The position numbers and the translations under genes were made by a program. From Shinella lacus (GTDB taxonomy: Bacteria > Pseudomonadota > Alphaproteobacteria > Rhizobiales > Rhizobiaceae), in the NCBI RefSeq assembly GCF_010994755.1, contig NZ_WHSB02000002.1, positions 558,001 through 622,000 on the forward strand: a stretch of 64,000 nt of DNA, given 5' to 3'. Below the pieces are notes generated by a model that saw only the letters and a program-made list of their open reading frames with translations, was not told the origin of the DNA and searched no databases. Below are positions 7,105-51,968 of the stretch, piece after piece (the stretch's first letter is position 1; each line of letters begins with the position of its first letter).

Positions 7105-7293
7105 GCCTTGTTATCCTTTTCCGGTTGAACCTCCGCAAGGCGAACAGCATCCCTTATCGAGGAATGCCACCGGGCGGAACGGTCCGGATTTCTCCCGGAC
7201 GATCCCATGCCTTACGTGTGGAATGGCTGCCCCATACCCTCAGTTTCCGGGCAAATCAAGGGCAGCGGGTTAAAAAATGCGATCGCAGGGTGC

Positions 7294-31557: not shown

Positions 31558-31632
31558 GCGCCCTTCGTCTATCGGTTAGGACGTCAGATTTTCATTCTGA
31601 AAAGAGGGGTTCGACTCCCCTAGGGCGTGCCA
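31558..31632 (+). tRNA. tRNA-Glu (anticodon UUC), copy 1
   Basis: 75 nt with encoded CCA. Acceptor GCGCCCT with AGGGCGT (first pair G-U), anticodon stem TCAGA/TCTGA around loop TTTTCAT (anticodon TTC), T-stem AGGGG/CCCCT. Identical to copies 2 and 3, and the 15 bases before it (AAGACGCCCACCGCAC) are also shared. Confidence 0.97.
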
Positions 31633-32081
31633 CTTCCCCCACATCACGCATTAATGACCGCCCGAAGCTTTTCGTGCTCGCCTTGGCGTGGAACGACACA
31701 TGTTAAGGATCGTTTAGGATTTACGGCTGCGATCTTACGCGGTCGGGAGAGAGGCCCCGTCGAGTATGGCCCAGCGCTCCGGGGTCTCGATCCGCTCAGT
31801 CGCACCGCTCGTCCGGCCCAGCATGCCGGACGAGCGGCTGCGTGTTGCCGACAACGGCAACGGAGCTGAGCCAACGGGCACCGCCGGGAGGGTCAACGGC
31901 GGCAACCTCAGGACCTTCAGCAAGGATTATATGGGAAGGCTCCCGCGAAATTGCCAGTCGTCAATTCGACGACGGCGCCCTACCCCGTGGGTTCCGGTTT
32001 CCACCGATGAAAAAGTTGCGATTTTCGCGATTTTCCGTCTTGCGCATCCGGCCGGTCCTGATTAGAAGACGCCCACCGCAC
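31633..32081. other. 449-base spacer between tRNA-Glu copies 1 and 2
   Basis: No convincing protein gene; the few open frames are short and lack ribosome-binding sites. The striking content is the palindrome cluster at 31751-31902 described separately. The last 17 bases (AAGACGCCCACCGCAC region) repeat the leader of copies 1 and 3. Confidence 0.5.
31751..31902. repeat. Nested palindrome cluster between tRNA-Glu genes (possible structured RNA or mosaic repeat)
   Basis: Five stems in 152 bases. (A) GAGGCCCCG 31751-31759 with CGGGGTCTC 31780-31788. (B) 13-bp CCGCTCGTCCGGC 31805-31817 with GCCGGACGAGCGG 31825-31837. (C) GTTGCCG 31844-31850 with CGGCAAC 31855-31861, loop ACAA. (D) GCTCAG 31794-31799 with CTGAGC 31866-31871, enclosing B and C. 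(E) CCGCCG 31881-31886 with CGGCGG 31897-31902. D with B and C makes a three-way junction. I do not recognise it as a known RNA; rhizobial mosaic elements (RIME-type) are the main alternative. Confidence 0.5.
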
Positions 32082-32156
32082 GCGCCCTTCGTCTATCGGT
32101 TAGGACGTCAGATTTTCATTCTGAAAAGAGGGGTTCGACTCCCCTAGGGCGTGCCA
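32082..32156 (+). tRNA. tRNA-Glu (anticodon UUC), copy 2
   Basis: Identical over all 75 bases to copies 1 and 3. The leader AGAAGACGCCCACCGCAC immediately before it is shared exactly with copy 3, so the duplicated unit is about 93 bases: leader plus tRNA. Confidence 0.97.
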
Positions 32157-32284
32157 CTTCCCCTCCCCGAATACAGTCTCGGCCTCTCCGGACCGGCTCA
32201 TCAATCGAGCGGGAAAAAAGAGAAAAATCCTGCCTTTAGGGCTTGCGCAAATCGGCAGGCCCGACTAGAAGACGCCCACCGCAC

Positions 32285-32359
32285 GCGCCCTTCGTCTATC
32301 GGTTAGGACGTCAGATTTTCATTCTGAAAAGAGGGGTTCGACTCCCCTAGGGCGTGCCA
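32285..32359 (+). tRNA. tRNA-Glu (anticodon UUC), copy 3
   Basis: Identical to copies 1 and 2. The spacer from copy 2 (32157-32284, 128 bases) is unrelated to the first spacer apart from the leader, and holds no gene. recJ converges from the other strand 35 bases later. Confidence 0.97.
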
Positions 32360-47581: not shown

Positions 47582-48681
47582 GCCTCCACCTTGGTTTCAG
47601 CCTTGGAAAAACGCCGCTCCAGCGCGATCACGCCCCAGGCGATCAGAGCCACCACCAGGCCCGAGACGAGGAAGAAGCCGGACGTGCCGATGATGGAGCC
47701 GATCGTTTCGGAGGCGAGATAGAGCGTCTCGGCAGCGAAAGCACCGTAGCCGAGATAACGCACCGCCCCGTTCTCCTTGCCCGAAAGCGCAATGCCGGCG
47801 ATGGCGGCCATGAGCGTGAGGATGCCGAGGAACAGCCGGTCCGCCACATTGTCGAATTCGGCATGCAGCACGAGAAGGCCGACCATCAGCACCAGGTAGG
47901 AATAGAAGGCGGGTGCGGCGCCGGCGCTGCGGGCAAAGGCATGGAGCGGCGACTGCGGCACGGCGGCCAGCAGATAGGCGACCGCGCCGAAGGCGGCAAT
48001 CGCGATGGCGGTCGTCGGCGTCTCGTATTCGCTATAGATAAAGGCGAGCCAGGTGACGAGCAGCAGATAGGCGAGATGGCGGACCCGCGCGGCGCCGGTA
48101 TACCGCACCAGCAGGATAATGATGACGGCCATCAGCGGCATCAGCCAGAGCAGCACGGTCTCGTTGGCGCTGTAGGATTGCGTCCAGTCCGCACCGGAAA
48201 CGACGAAGGCCAGGAAACCCGCGACGGCGGTGACGGCGCCCGAGCGGAAGAGCGCAGCCGCCACGACCGCGCCGACGAACCAGACGAGCGTCGCCTGGAA
48301 CGTATCGCCGGAGAGATGGTACATTTGCCCGACCAGCGCGATTGCCCCGCCGAAGGCGAGCGTGCCGAACACCAGGAAGGCGGCGGCGAGCCGCTCCGCG
48401 CCGCGCGTGATGAGCACTGCGCCGGCCAGATAGGCGCCCCAGATCAGCCCGACGATGCCGACGAGCCGCACGAGGCGCGGAATCGCATCCCAGTTGGCGG
48501 CGACCAGCAGCAGGACTGCGGCGGCGACCAGCAGTGCGGCGATGATCATCAGCACACGGCCGAGGCTGAAGGAACTGGGGCGGGAATCGTATTCCTTGAG
48601 CAGCCGCCCAACCGTCGGCGCGTCGATCAGGCCCTGCACCTCCCAGAGTTTGAGGTCGCGCTCCAGCCTGCCCCTGTACAT
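47578..48681 (-). CDS. DUF2157 family membrane protein
   Basis: 367 aa from ATG 48681 (AGGA 5 bases before; the open frame extends 30 codons further). The N-terminal cytoplasmic helix region ERDLKLWEVQGLIDAPTVGR, then VLMIIAALLVAAAVLLLVAA and N-W-D match DUF2157. About ten membrane segments follow. Uncharacterised; the 4-base overlap with the GDYXXLXY gene suggests they act together in the membrane. Confidence 0.83.
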   Translation of the reverse strand: MYRGRLERDLKLWEVQGLIDAPTVGRLLKEYDSRPSSFSLGRVLMIIAALLVAAAVLLLVAANWDAIPRLVRLVGIVGLIWGAYLAGAVLITRGAERLAAAFLVFGTLAFGGAIALVGQMYHLSGDTFQATLVWFVGAVVAAALFRSGAVTAVAGFLAFVVSGADWTQSYSANETVLLWLMPLMAVIIILLVRYTGAARVRHLAYLLLVTWLAFIYSEYETPTTAIAIAAFGAVAYLLAAVPQSPLHAFARSAGAAPAFYSYLVLMVGLLVLHAEFDNVADRLFLGILTLMAAIAGIALSGKENGAVRYLGYGAFAAETLYLASETIGSIIGTSGFFLVSGLVVALIAWGVIALERRFSKAETKVEA

Positions 48682-48945
48682 GCGTTCCTGCTCCGTTCCG
48701 AAAATATCATTCGATCGCGCCGATTCCGGCTCTGTCAACAGGGACGATATAGGTTGCAGAGAAATTCGCAATCGGGGCGAAAACTCGAAAAATGGGCAAA
48801 TCTTCGCGAGTTATGCCCTTGAATGCGGGCCAATGACAACCAAGATTAACGGGAAATAAAGAAATGCATGGTAATTCTAGCCCTCAAGAGCCGATTGGCT
48901 CGGCGGTTTCGGGCATGCAGCGGGCGCATATCATCCATGCCCATA
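48682..48945. other. Region upstream of the small-RNA locus
   Basis: The DUF2157 promoter should lie here. No gene found. The stretch 48880-48900 (CCCTCAAGAGCCGATTGGCT) and GGGCATGCAGCGGGCGCAT-like words near 48911 lead into the promoter-like module at 48946. Confidence 0.35.
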
Positions 48946-48980
48946 TTGCACTGCACAAAATCGACGGGCGCGGTTATAGT
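48946..48980 (+). promoter_or_regulatory. Promoter-like module P1 upstream of sRNA copy 1
   Basis: TTGCACTGCAC at 48946-48956 and TATAGT at 48975-48980, 29 bases from start to start. The same 11-mer lies at exactly the same distance before TATATA in P4 (50178/50207), upstream of the second DUF1127 gene. After the -10, TCATCGGATCAG resembles TCATCAGATCAG after the -10 of P3. If used, the transcript would begin near 48987 and run about 260 nt to the sRNA-1 terminator. Confidence 0.45.
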
Positions 48981-49127
48981 TCAGTCATCGGATCAGAGAT
49001 GGTTCGGCCCGGAAATCAAGGCGCCGCGTTTCGTATGGCGACAGAGGACCGGAAGAGCGGATTGGTCGAACGCCTGGCATGATGCCTGAAGACCCGATGC
49101 CCGGAAACGGGGATCGACATAGAATTC

Positions 49128-49248
49128 GGGGCGACGCACTCCTCCTCCCAGCGTCGCTTCGATACGATTGGCAACACTCCTCCTCCCAGTTGCCAGTCAC
49201 CTTCAATGACGCCCGCTGGATCTCCTCCCCCAGCGGGCGTTATTATTT
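49128..49248 (+). ncRNA. Anti-Shine-Dalgarno small RNA, alpha-r14 (NfeR1-like) family, copy 1
   Basis: About 121 nt in three hairpins. H1: GCGACGC 49131-49137 with GCGTCGC 49151-49157. H2: GGCAAC 49170-49175 with GTTGCC 49189-49194. H3, the terminator: CGCCCGCTGG 49210-49219 with CCAGCGGGCG 49230-49239, then TTATTATTT. Each loop exposes a CU-rich motif: CCTCCTCCC at 49141-49149 and 49179-49187, CTCCTCCCC at 49222-49230, complementary to Shine-Dalgarno sequences. Size, three-hairpin form and loop motif fit the rhizobial alpha-r14 trans-acting RNAs. A TAGAAT at 49120 could be its own -10; a GAAA-loop hairpin at 49095-49116 precedes it. Confidence 0.85.
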
Positions 49249-49350
49249 GCGCCAGACGCATGGCGCGCCCTCTCTTTCCCGGCAAAATCCTCCGACGCTG
49301 GGCAGATCCGCGCAAAGTTTGCGCAATTTCGCGCGCCTGATGTTGAACGC

Positions 49351-49416
49351 ATGCAAGCGACGCATGGGTGCCATTCCGATCGCGCTCTTTTTTACGCGAC
49401 GGCGCCATCCTATATT
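49351..49416 (+). promoter_or_regulatory. Promoter P2 of sRNA copy 2 with conserved upstream box
   Basis: ATGCA-N5-CGCATGGGTGCC at 49351-49372, then a pyrimidine-rich -35 region (GCGCTCTTTTTT) and -10 TATATT at 49411-49416. The same box, spacing (within one base) and TATATTCC recur in P3 at 49641-49705. The likely RNA start is about 49422, just before hairpin 1. Confidence 0.7.
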
Positions 49417-49421
49417 CCTCT

Positions 49422-49547
49422 CATCGGTCGGGCGACGATCTCCTCCTCCCAACGTCCCCGACAGGATCGGCACCCCTCCTCCTCCCAGGTTGCCGATCGA
49501 GACCAGAAACGCCCGCCGGATCTCCTCCCCGGCGGGCGTTTCTTTTT
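49422..49547 (+). ncRNA. Anti-Shine-Dalgarno small RNA, alpha-r14 (NfeR1-like) family, copy 2
   Basis: About 126 nt, the same design as copy 1 with diverged stems. H1: TCGGG-C-GACG 49428-49437 with CGTCCCCGA 49453-49461 (one bulged C). H2: GATCGGCA 49465-49472 with TGCCGATC 49491-49498. H3, the terminator: CGCCCGCCGG 49510-49519 with CCGGCGGGCG 49529-49538, then TTTCTTTTT. Loop motifs: CCTCCTCCC at 49442-49450, CCTCCTCCTCCC at 49475-49486, CTCCTCCCC at 49522-49530. Stems change while loops stay, the pattern of selection on loop sequence and structure. Confidence 0.88.
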
Positions 49548-49640
49548 GCACTGCACCCAACCAGAGATGCATACCGGCCTTAACCTTTGTGGCCGAAAGC
49601 CCGGATTTTGGCCAGAATTTTGCCAAAATTTCTGCTTGAC

Positions 49641-49705
49641 ATGCACAAAACGCATGGGTGCCGTGCTGGAACAGCGCTGTTCTTTTCGGCGGCGCAGCGT
49701 ATATT
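49641..49705 (+). promoter_or_regulatory. Promoter P3 of the first DUF1127 gene, sharing the P2 box
   Basis: ATGCA-N5-CGCATGGGTGCC at 49641-49662 and -10 TATATT at 49700-49705, with GCGCTGTTCTTTTC between. Box-to--10 distance is 59 bases (60 in P2). Expected RNA start is about 49712, leaving a leader of about 67 nt before ATG 49779. Confidence 0.7.
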
Positions 49706-49778
49706 CCGTTTCATCAGATCAGGGCGGCGCCAAAGACGAGCGGCCGCCCAGTACGAAGCCCAAGAAAGGGGTAATCAC

Positions 49779-49922
49779 ATGAACCTGGCACGCTCTTTTA
49801 ACAACTGGCGCAAGTATCGTCAGACCGTCAACGAACTCGGCCGCATGTCGGACCGCGAGCTCCGCGACCTCGGCATCGGCCGCAGCGATATCCCGTACAT
49901 CGCTCGCAAGGCTTCCAACTAA
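49779..49922 (+). CDS. DUF1127 domain protein 1
   Basis: 47 aa. N-terminal amphipathic basic helix (NLARSFNNWRKYRQTVNELG) and the DUF1127 core MSDRELRDLGIGRSDIPYIA. Arg/Lys-rich and Asp-Leu-Gly-containing, as in family members. Alphaproteobacterial small DUF1127 proteins affect RNA turnover, phosphate and carbon metabolism; CcaF1 of Rhodobacter is RNA-binding and encoded with the anti-SD RNAs CcsR1-4. AAGGGG precedes ATG 49779. Two palindromes (GACCGTTAACGGTC at 49930, then the terminator at 49952) follow the stop. Confidence 0.93.
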   Translation: MNLARSFNNWRKYRQTVNELGRMSDRELRDLGIGRSDIPYIARKASN

Positions 49923-49951
49923 GCCGAACGACCGTTAACGGTCCTTTTTCG

Positions 49952-49984
49952 AACGCCCTCCGGTTCCCGCCGGAGGGCGTTTTG
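49952..49984 (+). terminator. Rho-independent terminator of DUF1127 gene 1
   Basis: ACGCCCTCCGG (49953-49963) pairs with CCGGAGGGCGT (49970-49980) around loop TTCCCG, then TTTTG. A shorter palindrome with a U-run (GACCGTTAACGGTCCTTTTT) at 49930-49949 may act first. Confidence 0.92.
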
Positions 49985-50153
49985 CTGTGCGCGACTTATT
50001 GCGGCGCACAATGTCGCGATTCATCGTCTGCGACACGCCTGCTTTTCTTCCCCGAAAATGCTGAAAATCCCTATCCGCCTGGAATAGCGGCACTTTCTGC
50101 CTATTATGCTCGCAGCGTTCGCAACTGCCCGATCCGTGATCGTCTTATTGCAC
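49985..50153. other. Gap between the first terminator and promoter P4
   Basis: No gene is seen. A/T-richer than its surroundings from 50035 to 50100. Together with P4 it makes up the 346-base space between the two DUF1127 genes. Confidence 0.35.
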
Positions 50154-50212
50154 AAATGCATAGCAGCTGCATTTTCTTTGCACTGCACATTAACAAGAGT
50201 GTCGCGTATATA
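50154..50212 (+). promoter_or_regulatory. Promoter P4 of DUF1127 gene 2 with dyad and 11-mer box
   Basis: Perfect inverted repeat AAATGCA-TAGCAGC-TGCATTT at 50154-50174, then TTGCACTGCAC at 50178-50188 (also in P1) and TATATA at 50207-50212. The dyad is centred about 43 bases before the -10, a usual activator position. Like P2 and P3 it has GCAT/TGC words well upstream of a TATAT-type -10. Confidence 0.55.
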
Positions 50213-50268
50213 AGCATCACAAACCGGTTGACAGACGTCCCGGACAACCGCTTCGAGGAGCAAAGACG

Positions 50269-50412
50269 ATGAACCCGATCCGCATTGCAAAGAACTGGAT
50301 TTCCTACCGCCGCACGATGAACGAACTCGGCAACCTGTCGAACCACACGCTGTCCGACATCGGCCTGACGCGTTACGACATCCGCGACATCGCAGCCCGT
50401 TCCTTCCGCTAA
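50269..50412 (+). CDS. DUF1127 domain protein 2
   Basis: 47 aa, too short for most gene lists. Reads MNPIRIAKNWISYRRTMNEL then GNLSNHTLSDIGLTRYDIRD and IAARSFR. It aligns along its whole length with DUF1127 protein 1 (Asn-Trp, Tyr-Arg, N-E-L-G, L-x-D-I/L-G-x-x-R-x-D-I), so the two are paralogues. GAGGAG 8 bases before ATG. Net positive N-terminal helix suggests nucleic-acid binding. Its own promoter (P4) and terminator (50471) make it a separate unit. Confidence 0.92.
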   Translation: MNPIRIAKNWISYRRTMNELGNLSNHTLSDIGLTRYDIRDIAARSFR

Positions 50413-50470
50413 GACATCAGCCGAATTTCCGCCGCTGCGGCCGGAATAGGCGACGCGCGAGGAACGCTTC

Positions 50471-50495
50471 AAACGGCACCATCTGGTGCCGTTTT
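50471..50495 (+). terminator. Rho-independent terminator of DUF1127 gene 2
   Basis: ACGGCACCA (50473-50481) pairs with TGGTGCCGT (50484-50492) and is followed by TTTTTG; the inner pairs open to give a normal loop. 60 bases after the stop codon. Confidence 0.9.
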
Positions 50496-50558
50496 TGATT
50501 CAAGCTTTTGATTTCGGGGTGATGGAAAGCCGCACGCCGCCGTGGTAACGAACCGGCC

Positions 50559-51968
50559 ATGAACAACACCTCCTCCCCAGCCCCCATCCATATCATCGGC
50601 GGCGGCCTTGCCGGCTCCGAAGCCGCCTGGCAGATCGCCGAGCGTGGCGTGCCCGTCATCCTGCATGAAATGCGCGGCGTGCGCGGCACGGATGCCCACA
50701 AGACGGACGGCCTTGCCGAGCTCGTCTGTTCCAATTCCTTCCGCTCCGACGATGCGACCAGCAATGCGGTCGGCGTGCTGCACGCCGAAATGCGGCTGGC
50801 CGGTTCGCTGATCATGCGTTCGGCCGATGCCAACCAGGTGCCGGCCGGCGGCGCGCTCGCGGTCGATCGCGATGGCTTTTCCGTTGCCGTCACGGCCGCT
50901 CTCGAAAGCCACCCGCTGATCACCATCACGCGCGAGGAAGTGACCGGACTGCCGCCGGAGGAATGGGACCAGGCGATCATCGCGACCGGTCCGCTGACCG
51001 CACCATCGCTCGCCGCAGCGATCCAGGCGCGCACCGGCGCCGATTCGCTCGCCTTCTTCGATGCCATCGCGCCGATCGTGCACACGGCAAGCATCGACAT
51101 GGAAATCTGCTGGTTCCAGTCGCGCTACGACAAGGTCGGCCCGGGCGGCACGGGCAAGGACTATATCAACTGCCCGATGGACGAGGCGCAGTACAATGCC
51201 TTCATCGATGCGCTGATCGCCGGCGACACGACGGGCTTTAAAGAATGGGAAGGCACGCCCTATTTCGACGGCTGCCTGCCGATCGAGGTGATGGCGGAGC
51301 GCGGCCGCGAGACGCTGCGCCACGGGCCGATGAAGCCGATGGGCCTCACCAATGCGCATAACCCGACCGTCAAGGCCTATGCCGTCGTGCAGCTGCGCCA
51401 GGACAATGCGCTCGGCACGCTCTACAACATGGTCGGCTTCCAGACAAAGCTGAAATATGGCGCGCAGGCAGAGATCTTTCGCCTGATTCCCGGGCTCGAA
51501 AATGCGGAATTCGCCCGCCTCGGCGGCCTGCACCGCAACACCTACATCAACTCGCCGACGCTGCTCGACCGTTCGCTGACGCTGAAAGGCCGCCCGGGCC
51601 TGCGCTTCGCCGGCCAGATCACCGGCTGCGAAGGTTATGTGGAGAGCGCCAGCATCGGCCTGCTCGCTGGCCGGTTCGCGGCCGCCGAGCGGCTGGGCGA
51701 AACGCCCTCGCTGCCGCCGGAAACGACCGCCTTCGGCGCGCTGCTGAACCATATTACCGGTGGCCACATCGTCTCCGACGACGAGCCGGGAAAACGCTCC
51801 TTCCAGCCGATGAACGTCAATTTCGGCCTGTTTCCGCCGCTGGAGCCGGGCGCGGTGATCAGGCCCGAAGGCCTGAAGCGCTTTCGCGGCAACGACAAGG
51901 CGATCGCCAAGAAGCACGCGACCGCCGCCCGCGCGCTTGAAGACTGCACGCGCTGGTTAAGCCTGTAA
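50559..51968 (+). CDS. trmFO: Methylenetetrahydrofolate-tRNA (uracil-54-C5) methyltransferase
   Basis: FAD/folate enzyme making ribothymidine 54 in tRNA T-loops. 469 aa. FAD motif [20 protein letters not shown], then the family-specific [40 protein letters not shown], and [20 protein letters not shown], with [20 protein letters not shown] near the C-terminus. It stands alone after the DUF1127 locus and converges with the next gene one base past its stop. Confidence 0.96.

Follow-up and report, generated by a model that had tools for sequence, protein, structure and literature searches.

What ties two small RNAs with anti-Shine-Dalgarno (anti-SD) loops to the two very short DUF1127 genes that follow them? 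The question is raised by a locus of Shinella lacus at 48916-50496 of the window analysed here, a 64-kb stretch of DNA (contig NZ_WHSB02000002.1, positions 558,001 to 622,000). On the plus strand, in order, lie ar14 RNA copy 1, ar14 RNA copy 2, DUF1127-1 and DUF1127-2, with trmFO next downstream, and every element is where the initial annotation of this DNA had placed it. We consider it likely, although some way from certain, that LsrB controls the four units and that each is transcribed as a short RNA from a promoter of its own, two of them being ar14 RNAs and two DUF1127 mRNAs. The annotation had spoken of one regulatory locus, and this much stands, because the four units share LsrB/VtlR motifs and because the neighbourhood of RNA and DUF1127 gene is strongly conserved. 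What does not stand is a single operon: each of the four units appears, from its sequence, to have its own promoter and terminator, and the locus is thus better called a cluster.

A conserved pairing of ar14 RNAs and short DUF1127 genes

The principal elements are as follows.

49121..49248 (+): ar14 RNA copy 1, with three anti-SD-loop hairpins, the third being the terminator (RF02344, fold z-score, covariation)
49423..49547 (+): ar14 RNA copy 2, the NfeR1-like copy (RF02344, fold z-score, NfeR1-type promoter layout)
49779..49922 (+): DUF1127-1, 47 amino acids (PF06568, 65.1 bits)
50269..50412 (+): DUF1127-2, 47 amino acids (PF06568, 53.6 bits)
50559..51968 (+): trmFO/GidA-family gene, the conserved neighbour used as an anchor (PF01134, 326.4 bits)

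Both RNAs belong to the ar14 family. In a covariance-model search with RF02344, for which the curated Rfam cut-off is 58.8 bits, copy 1 matched over 49121-49245 (121.5 bits, E 5.2e-22) and copy 2 over 49423-49544 (90.7 bits, E 3.6e-15); the alpha-r14/NfeR1 membership suggested in the initial annotation is therefore borne out by the search that it had itself proposed as a check. Its description of three hairpins per RNA with CUCCUCC-type loops also proved accurate. Against 200 shuffles the folds have z-scores of -9.98 (copy 1, 49121-49248) and -6.55 (copy 2, 49424-49547), and every hairpin carries an unpaired CCUCCUCCC-type loop. CTCCTCC occurs 21 times in the window, where 10.3 matches are expected, and 10 of these, overlapping one another, fall in the six ar14 loops. 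Covariation was counted on copy 1 only. In 20 relatives of this copy the helices hold standard pairs in 99.7% of cells, and 26 cells are double-changed, a count that none of 500 shuffles reached (mean 7.8); one measure, further pair types, is unremarkable, as 99 of the 500 shuffles reach it.

The two proteins are well above the PF06568 cut-off (23.3 bits) and are 47% identical to each other, in keeping with the two paralogous 47-codon genes first described. In size and domain they are short DUF1127 proteins (SDPs; 47-48 amino acids with PF06568). The best named match of trmFO is in Shinella yambaruensis (94% identity), and the whole 7.04-Mb genome holds four ar14 and seven DUF1127 matches.

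The pairing of the two kinds of element is widespread. We surveyed 61 genomes, this one and 60 relatives, for ar14 with Infernal under stricter filters, and found 108 matches over the cut-off. At least 82 of these have a DUF1127 gene on the same strand within 1.5 kb and at least 64 within 500 nucleotides (nt), where, with about six DUF1127 genes per 5 Mb, we estimate that chance would give less than one; the DUF1127 genes used are those listed for the genomes, with three matches of this genome added, so the linked counts are lower bounds, and the unlinked count (at most 26 of 108, among the matches listed) is an upper bound. The order RNA-RNA-DUF-DUF was seen at no fewer than 19 loci, RNA-DUF-DUF at 7 or more and DUF-RNA (over the cut-off) at 28 or more, other mixed orders being few. 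All 21 genomes of the genus carry RNA-DUF-DUF with one or two RNAs, so the duplication and order, which had been singled out as unusual, are not unusual here; tandem RNAs of this kind also match small RNAs of Sinorhizobium meliloti (PMC2873474). DUF-RNA order occurs elsewhere within the genus too, contig C45 of the present genome being one case. One genus genome (G001:C2:1283571-1284850) has its tandem ar14 RNAs about 1.0 kb apart, against the usual 0.18 kb or so, as if something had been inserted.

With trmFO as the anchor, 80 named loci were compared by means of a DUF1127 profile derived from four proteins of this genome, which could overlook distant members; one of the sequences (L048) ends 145 nt upstream of trmFO. 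An RNA comes first in 19 (7 RNA-RNA-DUF-DUF, 9 RNA-DUF-DUF and 3 RNA-DUF-RNA-DUF), a DUF1127 gene followed by an RNA in 27, a DUF1127 gene without detected ar14 in 21, an RNA without DUF1127 in 2 (one on a cut contig), and 11 yielded neither. Loci with the RNA in front bear Rhizobiaceae-type names, among them Shinella, Sinorhizobium, Ensifer, Rhizobium and Ciceribacter; two have no label beyond Rhizobiales. Some Rhizobium- and Agrobacterium-named trmFO loci have no RNA there. DUF-first loci include those of Mesorhizobium, Phyllobacterium, Brucella, Aurantimonas, Oricola and Roseibium. At an Aurantimonas locus (L054:4089-4893), again upstream of trmFO, a single DUF1127 gene is followed by a tandem array of six ar14-like RNAs.

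LsrB/VtlR motifs before the four units

In the NfeR1 promoter LsrB binds TGCA-N6-GCAT (PMC10746234), and a consensus for LsrB/VtlR, GCAT-N3-TG-N3-T, has been placed at -61 to -49 of abcR1 (PMC8844928; PMC7486931). One or both of these motifs lie before every unit of the cluster, among the following features.

48916..48950 (either strand): LsrB/VtlR motif region of P1, the promoter of copy 1, with TGCA-N6-GCAT on the plus strand (48916-48929) and a composite box on the minus strand (48932-48950) (pattern matches)
49309..49325 (+): NtrC-like site CGC-N11-GCA, one mismatch from TGC-N11-GCA, at -114 to -98 of copy 2 (sequence reading)
49352..49374 (+): LsrB/VtlR box upstream of copy 2, containing each of the two published motifs (pattern matches)
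49411..49423 (+): -10 TATATT and predicted start of copy 2 (sequence reading)
49642..49664 (+): LsrB/VtlR box of DUF1127-1 (pattern matches)
49700..49713 (+): -10 TATATT and predicted start of the DUF1127-1 mRNA (sequence reading)
49952..49983 (+): terminator of DUF1127-1, like ar14 hairpin 3 minus its anti-SD loop (sequence reading)
50147..50159 (-): VtlR motif upstream of DUF1127-2, GCATTTGTGCAAT (pattern match)
50473..50496 (+): terminator of DUF1127-2 (sequence reading)

For two of the units the published spacing is reproduced, counting from predicted starts: GCAT-N3-TG-N3-T occupies -61 to -49 before both copy 2 (49362-49374, start 49423) and DUF1127-1 (49652-49664, start 49713). Copy 2 also has the layout of an NfeR1-type promoter, namely an LsrB motif near -72 to -57 together with a sigma-70 core (PMC10746234), since its TGCA-N6-GCAT (49352-49365) spans -71 to -58 of the predicted start. 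NfeR1 resembles copy 2 further in having both an LsrB motif and an NtrC site upstream (PMC10746234), although the predicted NtrC-like site here has one mismatch; the exact NtrC motif stands, by eye, at the equivalent place in three of the seven named tandem loci (L016, L017 and L030).

The pattern extends to relatives. In 22 aligned loci (21 of the genus and one of another genus), TGCA-N6-GCAT lies, on either strand, no more than 240 nt before copy 1 in all 22, and either motif is found before 16 of 17 recognised second RNA copies, before 13 of 13 recognised DUF1127-1 genes and within 200 nt upstream of 19 of 21 recognised DUF1127-2 genes. TGCA-N6-GCAT matches six times in the window, four of these within 48916-49655. 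A composite box, TGCA-N6-GCAT-N3-TG, which is our own combination of the two motifs, occurs three times in the window, always at the locus (upstream of copy 2 and of DUF1127-1 on the plus strand, upstream of copy 1 on the minus strand), and 12 times in the genome, including these three, against 3 for the reversed pattern. Seven of the nine boxes elsewhere lie inside an open reading frame (ORF) of at least 150 codons, a weak test, as one of the boxes at the locus does so too. An Rfam search of these nine loci and of the AbcR locus found no ar14. At the 19 named RNA-first loci there are 15 composite boxes in 41.8 kb (the 2.2 kb upstream of trmFO) versus 1 in 174.8 kb of flank, and at the other 61 named loci 20 in 131.9 kb upstream of trmFO versus none in 537.6 kb of flank. 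One strict composite box (C13:403529; L127:1501-1519) lies 56 nt before a gene whose product resembles pyruvate dehydrogenase E1 alpha in sequence.

Where a DUF1127 gene comes first, a motif precedes the first DUF1127 domain within 260 nt in 25 of 27 named loci. In none of the nine DUF-DUF-RNA loci that carry two or three RNAs does the second DUF1127 gene have a motif, as would fit its being co-transcribed with the first gene. In DUF-only loci, of which there are 21, a motif was found before the first DUF1127 in 10 of the 17 examined. Six of the seven DUF1127 genes of this genome were checked, all except the weakest (L011). The 49-amino-acid DUF1127 protein of L008 has TGCA-N6-GCAT matches, and the longer proteins of L009 and L010 have no motif within 250 nt. 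On contig C45 (L003:1144-1625) a short DUF1127 gene is followed by an ar14 RNA with an extra anti-SD hairpin before it, and gene and RNA have separate LsrB/VtlR motifs (by eye). Another ar14 of this genome (C15:20538-20654; L002:1501-1617) has no LsrB/VtlR motif within 250 nt upstream, and its contig has no DUF1127 match.

A candidate for the regulator itself is a 302-amino-acid LysR protein encoded between what appears by eye to be the end of a trxB-like gene and two ar15/AbcR RNAs, which is the published lsrB/vtlR layout; a motif lies before the first AbcR. The VtlR/LsrB regulon of Agrobacterium and Brucella has the same motif and the same kinds of target, a short DUF1127-type gene and a small RNA (PMC7486931, PMC12595884): in A. 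tumefaciens the small-protein gene atu1667 is under VtlR control (PMC7486931), as are, in Brucella, three DUF1127 genes (PMC12595884). The RNAs of that regulon are abcR1 or abcR2, whereas those beside the DUF1127 genes here are ar14, not AbcR, and the sites are predicted. Most likely the four units share an LsrB/VtlR switch, to which LsrB would bind at each promoter.

General promoter and terminator scans were dropped as evidence. The sigma-70 scan of 48000-51600 found one promoter (0.8 expected) and the terminator scan six terminators (3.7 expected), counts too close to expectation to be informative; the latter scan permits loops of up to 8 nt, and the ar14 terminators are not among its listed matches.

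Conserved linkage also suits another account, which we regard as possible but doubtful: that RNAs and proteins work together as a single unit, the DUF1127 proteins binding the adjacent RNAs or helping them to mature, in the manner of CcaF1 and the CcsR RNAs. An association of DUF1127 with CcsR-like RNAs is reported to be frequent, RNA binding has been shown for the 71-amino-acid CcaF1 (both PMC10253847), and RNase E and CcaF1 act in CcsR maturation (PMC8625941); the proportion of ar14 RNAs linked to DUF1127 (at least 82 of 108) and an RNase-E-like motif at the expected cut point of ar14, described below, point the same way. However, in Rhodobacter sphaeroides the DUF1127 gene stands first and is co-transcribed with CcsR1-4 from an RpoHI/HII promoter, the transcript then being processed (PMC10253847), whereas the RNAs come first here, each unit apparently has an LsrB-type promoter and a terminator of its own, and the arrangement is not that of a DUF-first co-transcript. 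Furthermore, the published partner of the 47-48-amino-acid DUF1127 proteins of Agrobacterium tumefaciens, which DUF1127-1 and DUF1127-2 resemble in size and domain as far as sequences tell, is the kinase PhoR, and nothing was found to indicate that Salmonella YjiS binds RNA (PMC12501420). The up to 26 listed ar14 matches that lack a DUF1127 gene within 1.5 kb, and the 21 of 80 trmFO loci that have DUF1127 without detected ar14, also count against a unit of this kind. We regard modulation of a kinase such as PhoR as the most likely function of the two proteins, and a part in RNA maturation as possible.

A probable leader of copy 1 and the 5' edge of its ar14 RNA

For copy 2, a predicted transcript of about 124 nt, where some 123 nt would be expected of an ar14 RNA, agrees with the two RNAs of about 120 nt given in the initial annotation. 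For copy 1 that size probably has to be corrected, on account of the following features.

48952..48987 (+): core promoter P1 of copy 1, with -35-like TGCACA, -10 TATAGT (48975-48980) and predicted start 48987 (sigma-70 scan and conservation)
48987..49120 (+): 5' leader of copy 1, with a 5' hairpin (48990-49005) and a GNRA-loop hairpin (49100-49111) (consensus fold and pair counts, 20 sequences)
49122..49129 (+): GAATTCGG, an RNase-E-like motif (RNWUU) at the ar14 5' edge of copy 1, a candidate cleavage site (motif counts)

P1 is the sole sigma-70-like match in the region scanned, which is weak taken alone. However, the promoter-like region of copy 1 (48916-48987) is conserved and could be aligned in 22 of 22 genomes, the -10 varying somewhat. 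As it lies so far upstream, with 134 nt between the end of P1 (48987) and the ar14 match, the primary RNA is predicted to be about 262 nt long, and copy 1 is probably an RNA of that length with a partly structured 134-nt leader. In two genomes of the genus (L095 and L096) the leader is missing, and P1 lies only 22 nt from the ar14 match, which ties P1 to the RNA. In the 20 other genomes the three helices of the leader hold standard pairs in 96.4% of cells, falling to at most 44.5% when the partners are slid, and 14 cells are double-changed against a shuffled mean of 5.9, a count that none of 500 shuffles reached; the structure was derived from the same alignment as these pair counts, which favours it. 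A small protein encoded in the leader was considered and set aside: there is one 27-codon ORF in the window, and its start or frame is lost in the two relatives inspected by eye (L099 and L106).

Independent support for the longer RNA comes from published sequencing of S. meliloti, where SmelC398 (217 nt) and SmelC397 (124 nt) are adjacent on one strand with their 5' ends 368 nt apart (PMC2873474), SmelC397 being NfeR1 (PMC7143759). As here, the RNAs are in tandem and the first is the longer. S. meliloti itself lies outside our set of loci, but the spacing fits three Sinorhizobium/Ensifer loci in it (L016, L017 and L030), for which P1-based estimates give first RNAs of 212-227 nt and 5' ends 371-379 nt apart; the leader in S. 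lacus is the longer, at 134 nt versus a predicted 81-95. The published length of SmelC398 thus fits a leader-bearing copy 1 started at P1.

It is improbable, in our view, that the two RNAs are both ordinary ar14 RNAs of about 120 nt to which the small genes are merely neighbours, with P1 driving a separate leader transcript and copy 1 starting at about 49128. Such a start would have a -10-like TAGAAT (49117-49122, by eye) before it, and the leader alone is not significantly folded. Against this reading stand the conservation of P1 in all 22 loci, its near-direct junction with ar14 in L095 and L096, the 217 nt of SmelC398, which fit a start at P1, and the LsrB/VtlR motifs before all four units.

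If copy 1 is leader-bearing, its ar14 part may be cut from the longer transcript by RNase E. RNWUU has been reported at RNase E cleavage sites in Salmonella (PMC5222698). In the aligned genomes every one of the 22 copy-1 loci has it at the ar14 5' edge; at named RNA-first loci it stands there in 15 of the 19 RNAs that are first or single (a leader having been checked for in part of these 19), and it does so in 22 of 30 RNAs located after a DUF1127 gene. It is absent from the same edge in all seven named second copies, which are apparently self-promoted, and 10.7% of random positions carry it. Such a distribution is to be expected if the ar14 RNAs that carry the motif, unlike the second copies, were released from a longer transcript, as has been reported for the CcsR RNAs with RNase E and CcaF1 (PMC8625941).

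Several points weigh against the picture of an LsrB-controlled cluster with a leader-bearing copy 1. In the GCAT-N3-TG form, copy 1 and DUF1127-2 have their motifs on the minus strand. TGCA-N6-GCAT by itself is not rare in 64 kb, since 6 of 100 shuffles reach the six matches of the window; that count was dropped, and the evidence therefore rests on position. The composite pattern was built after the promoters had been inspected, and the RNWUU test was run after the motif had been noticed, and on related sequences. No NCBIfam model was over its cut-off for the candidate LysR protein among the 25 matches listed. The leader, absent from two genus genomes, folds on its own no better than shuffles (z -0.32), so that a strongly folded domain is unsupported although its helices covary, and the number of pairs that show a double change, four, is reached by 65 of 500 shuffles. 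The length estimates for L016, L017 and L030 were made after the published lengths were known, and a second -10 candidate in L016 (giving 331 nt) was set aside. Finally, according to a review (PMC7143759), Northern blots reliably show only one of the six copies of S. meliloti, so copy 1 may be weak.

Targets, origin and meaning of the cluster

NfeR1 silences ntrB through its anti-SD loops (PMC10746234). In this genome the ORF before ntrC has a start with GGGGAGG that gives -15.0 kcal/mol, the best pairing in the 500 nt scanned (another stretch gives -14.4), and of 45 starts in the window, measured on a slightly longer stretch, no more than 2 give stronger pairing; ntrB is thus a likely ar14 target. 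It is very unlikely that the ar14 RNAs act instead on the neighbouring DUF1127 mRNAs in an autoregulatory loop, for, although the ribosome-binding site of DUF1127-2 is GAGGAG and its GAGGA is kept in most relatives compared, the pairing energies are unremarkable among the long ORFs of the window (rank 25 of 45 for DUF1127-1 and 15 of 45 for DUF1127-2), and we rejected these mRNAs as favoured targets.

The terminator of DUF1127-1 may hold a trace of how the cluster arose. An ar14 RNA with two anti-SD loops and GAATTCGG comes after DUF1127-1 in Pararhizobium haloflavum (L044); at the same place one anti-SD loop remains in L018 and L023 and CTCCA-like remnants in L026 and L029, and the bare terminator of the window ends this graded series (all by eye). 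Together with the DUF-RNA order seen at the same place outside these genera, the series suggests that an older DUF-RNA pair decayed after the RNAs had gained promoters of their own, if we infer its direction correctly. Elsewhere in the window are an rpsB small RNA (7109-7220, minus strand; Rfam RF01815, 46.5 bits) and three tRNA genes (31558-32356, plus strand) with an equal Rfam score of 57.2 bits, the two that were aligned being identical.

In the mechanism that we propose, the LysR-type regulator LsrB/VtlR would switch on all four units. Copy 2, the equivalent of NfeR1, would be made directly as an RNA of about 124 nt, possibly held down by NtrC, and copy 1, the equivalent of SmelC398, as a leader-bearing precursor of about 262 nt, which RNase E may cut at GAAUUCGG to free an ar14 RNA of about 125 nt. 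Both RNAs would then pair in trans, through their CUCCUCC loops, with ribosome-binding sites and block translation, probably that of ntrB, and the DUF1127 proteins would be made under the same signal, most likely to modulate a kinase such as PhoR and possibly with a part in RNA maturation. Only tentatively do we go further and suggest that a single LsrB signal yields RNA by two routes of release (copy 2 ready-made, copy 1 freed by RNase E and possibly aided by DUF1127), and that the locus is an ancestral DUF1127-ar14 operon dismantled into separately promoted LsrB units, its old 3'-untranslated-region RNA having decayed to a bare terminator.

The association of DUF1127 with anti-SD RNAs in alphaproteobacteria is in print as the CIN1 locus or the cuckoo RNA family (PMC10253847), and in S. 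lacus, too, anti-SD RNAs adjoin a DUF1127 gene. The locus is a real and well-conserved member of this known type, for which we propose a shared switch and a corrected size of copy 1. Our literature searches, outside which most subscription papers lie, found no paper with both NfeR1 and DUF1127, and no description of the joint motifs, the leader or the edge motif in the passages that they returned. In that literature, the locus joins two lines that had not been joined, the riboregulation by LsrB and NfeR1 and the function of short DUF1127 proteins. If one LysR regulator does activate both anti-SD RNAs and DUF1127 proteins, the question of whether DUF1127 acts on RNA or on a kinase would become addressable at a single locus. 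Furthermore, the leader of copy 1 and the motif at its edge would offer a concrete case in which to look for DUF1127-aided release of ar14 RNA outside Rhodobacter.

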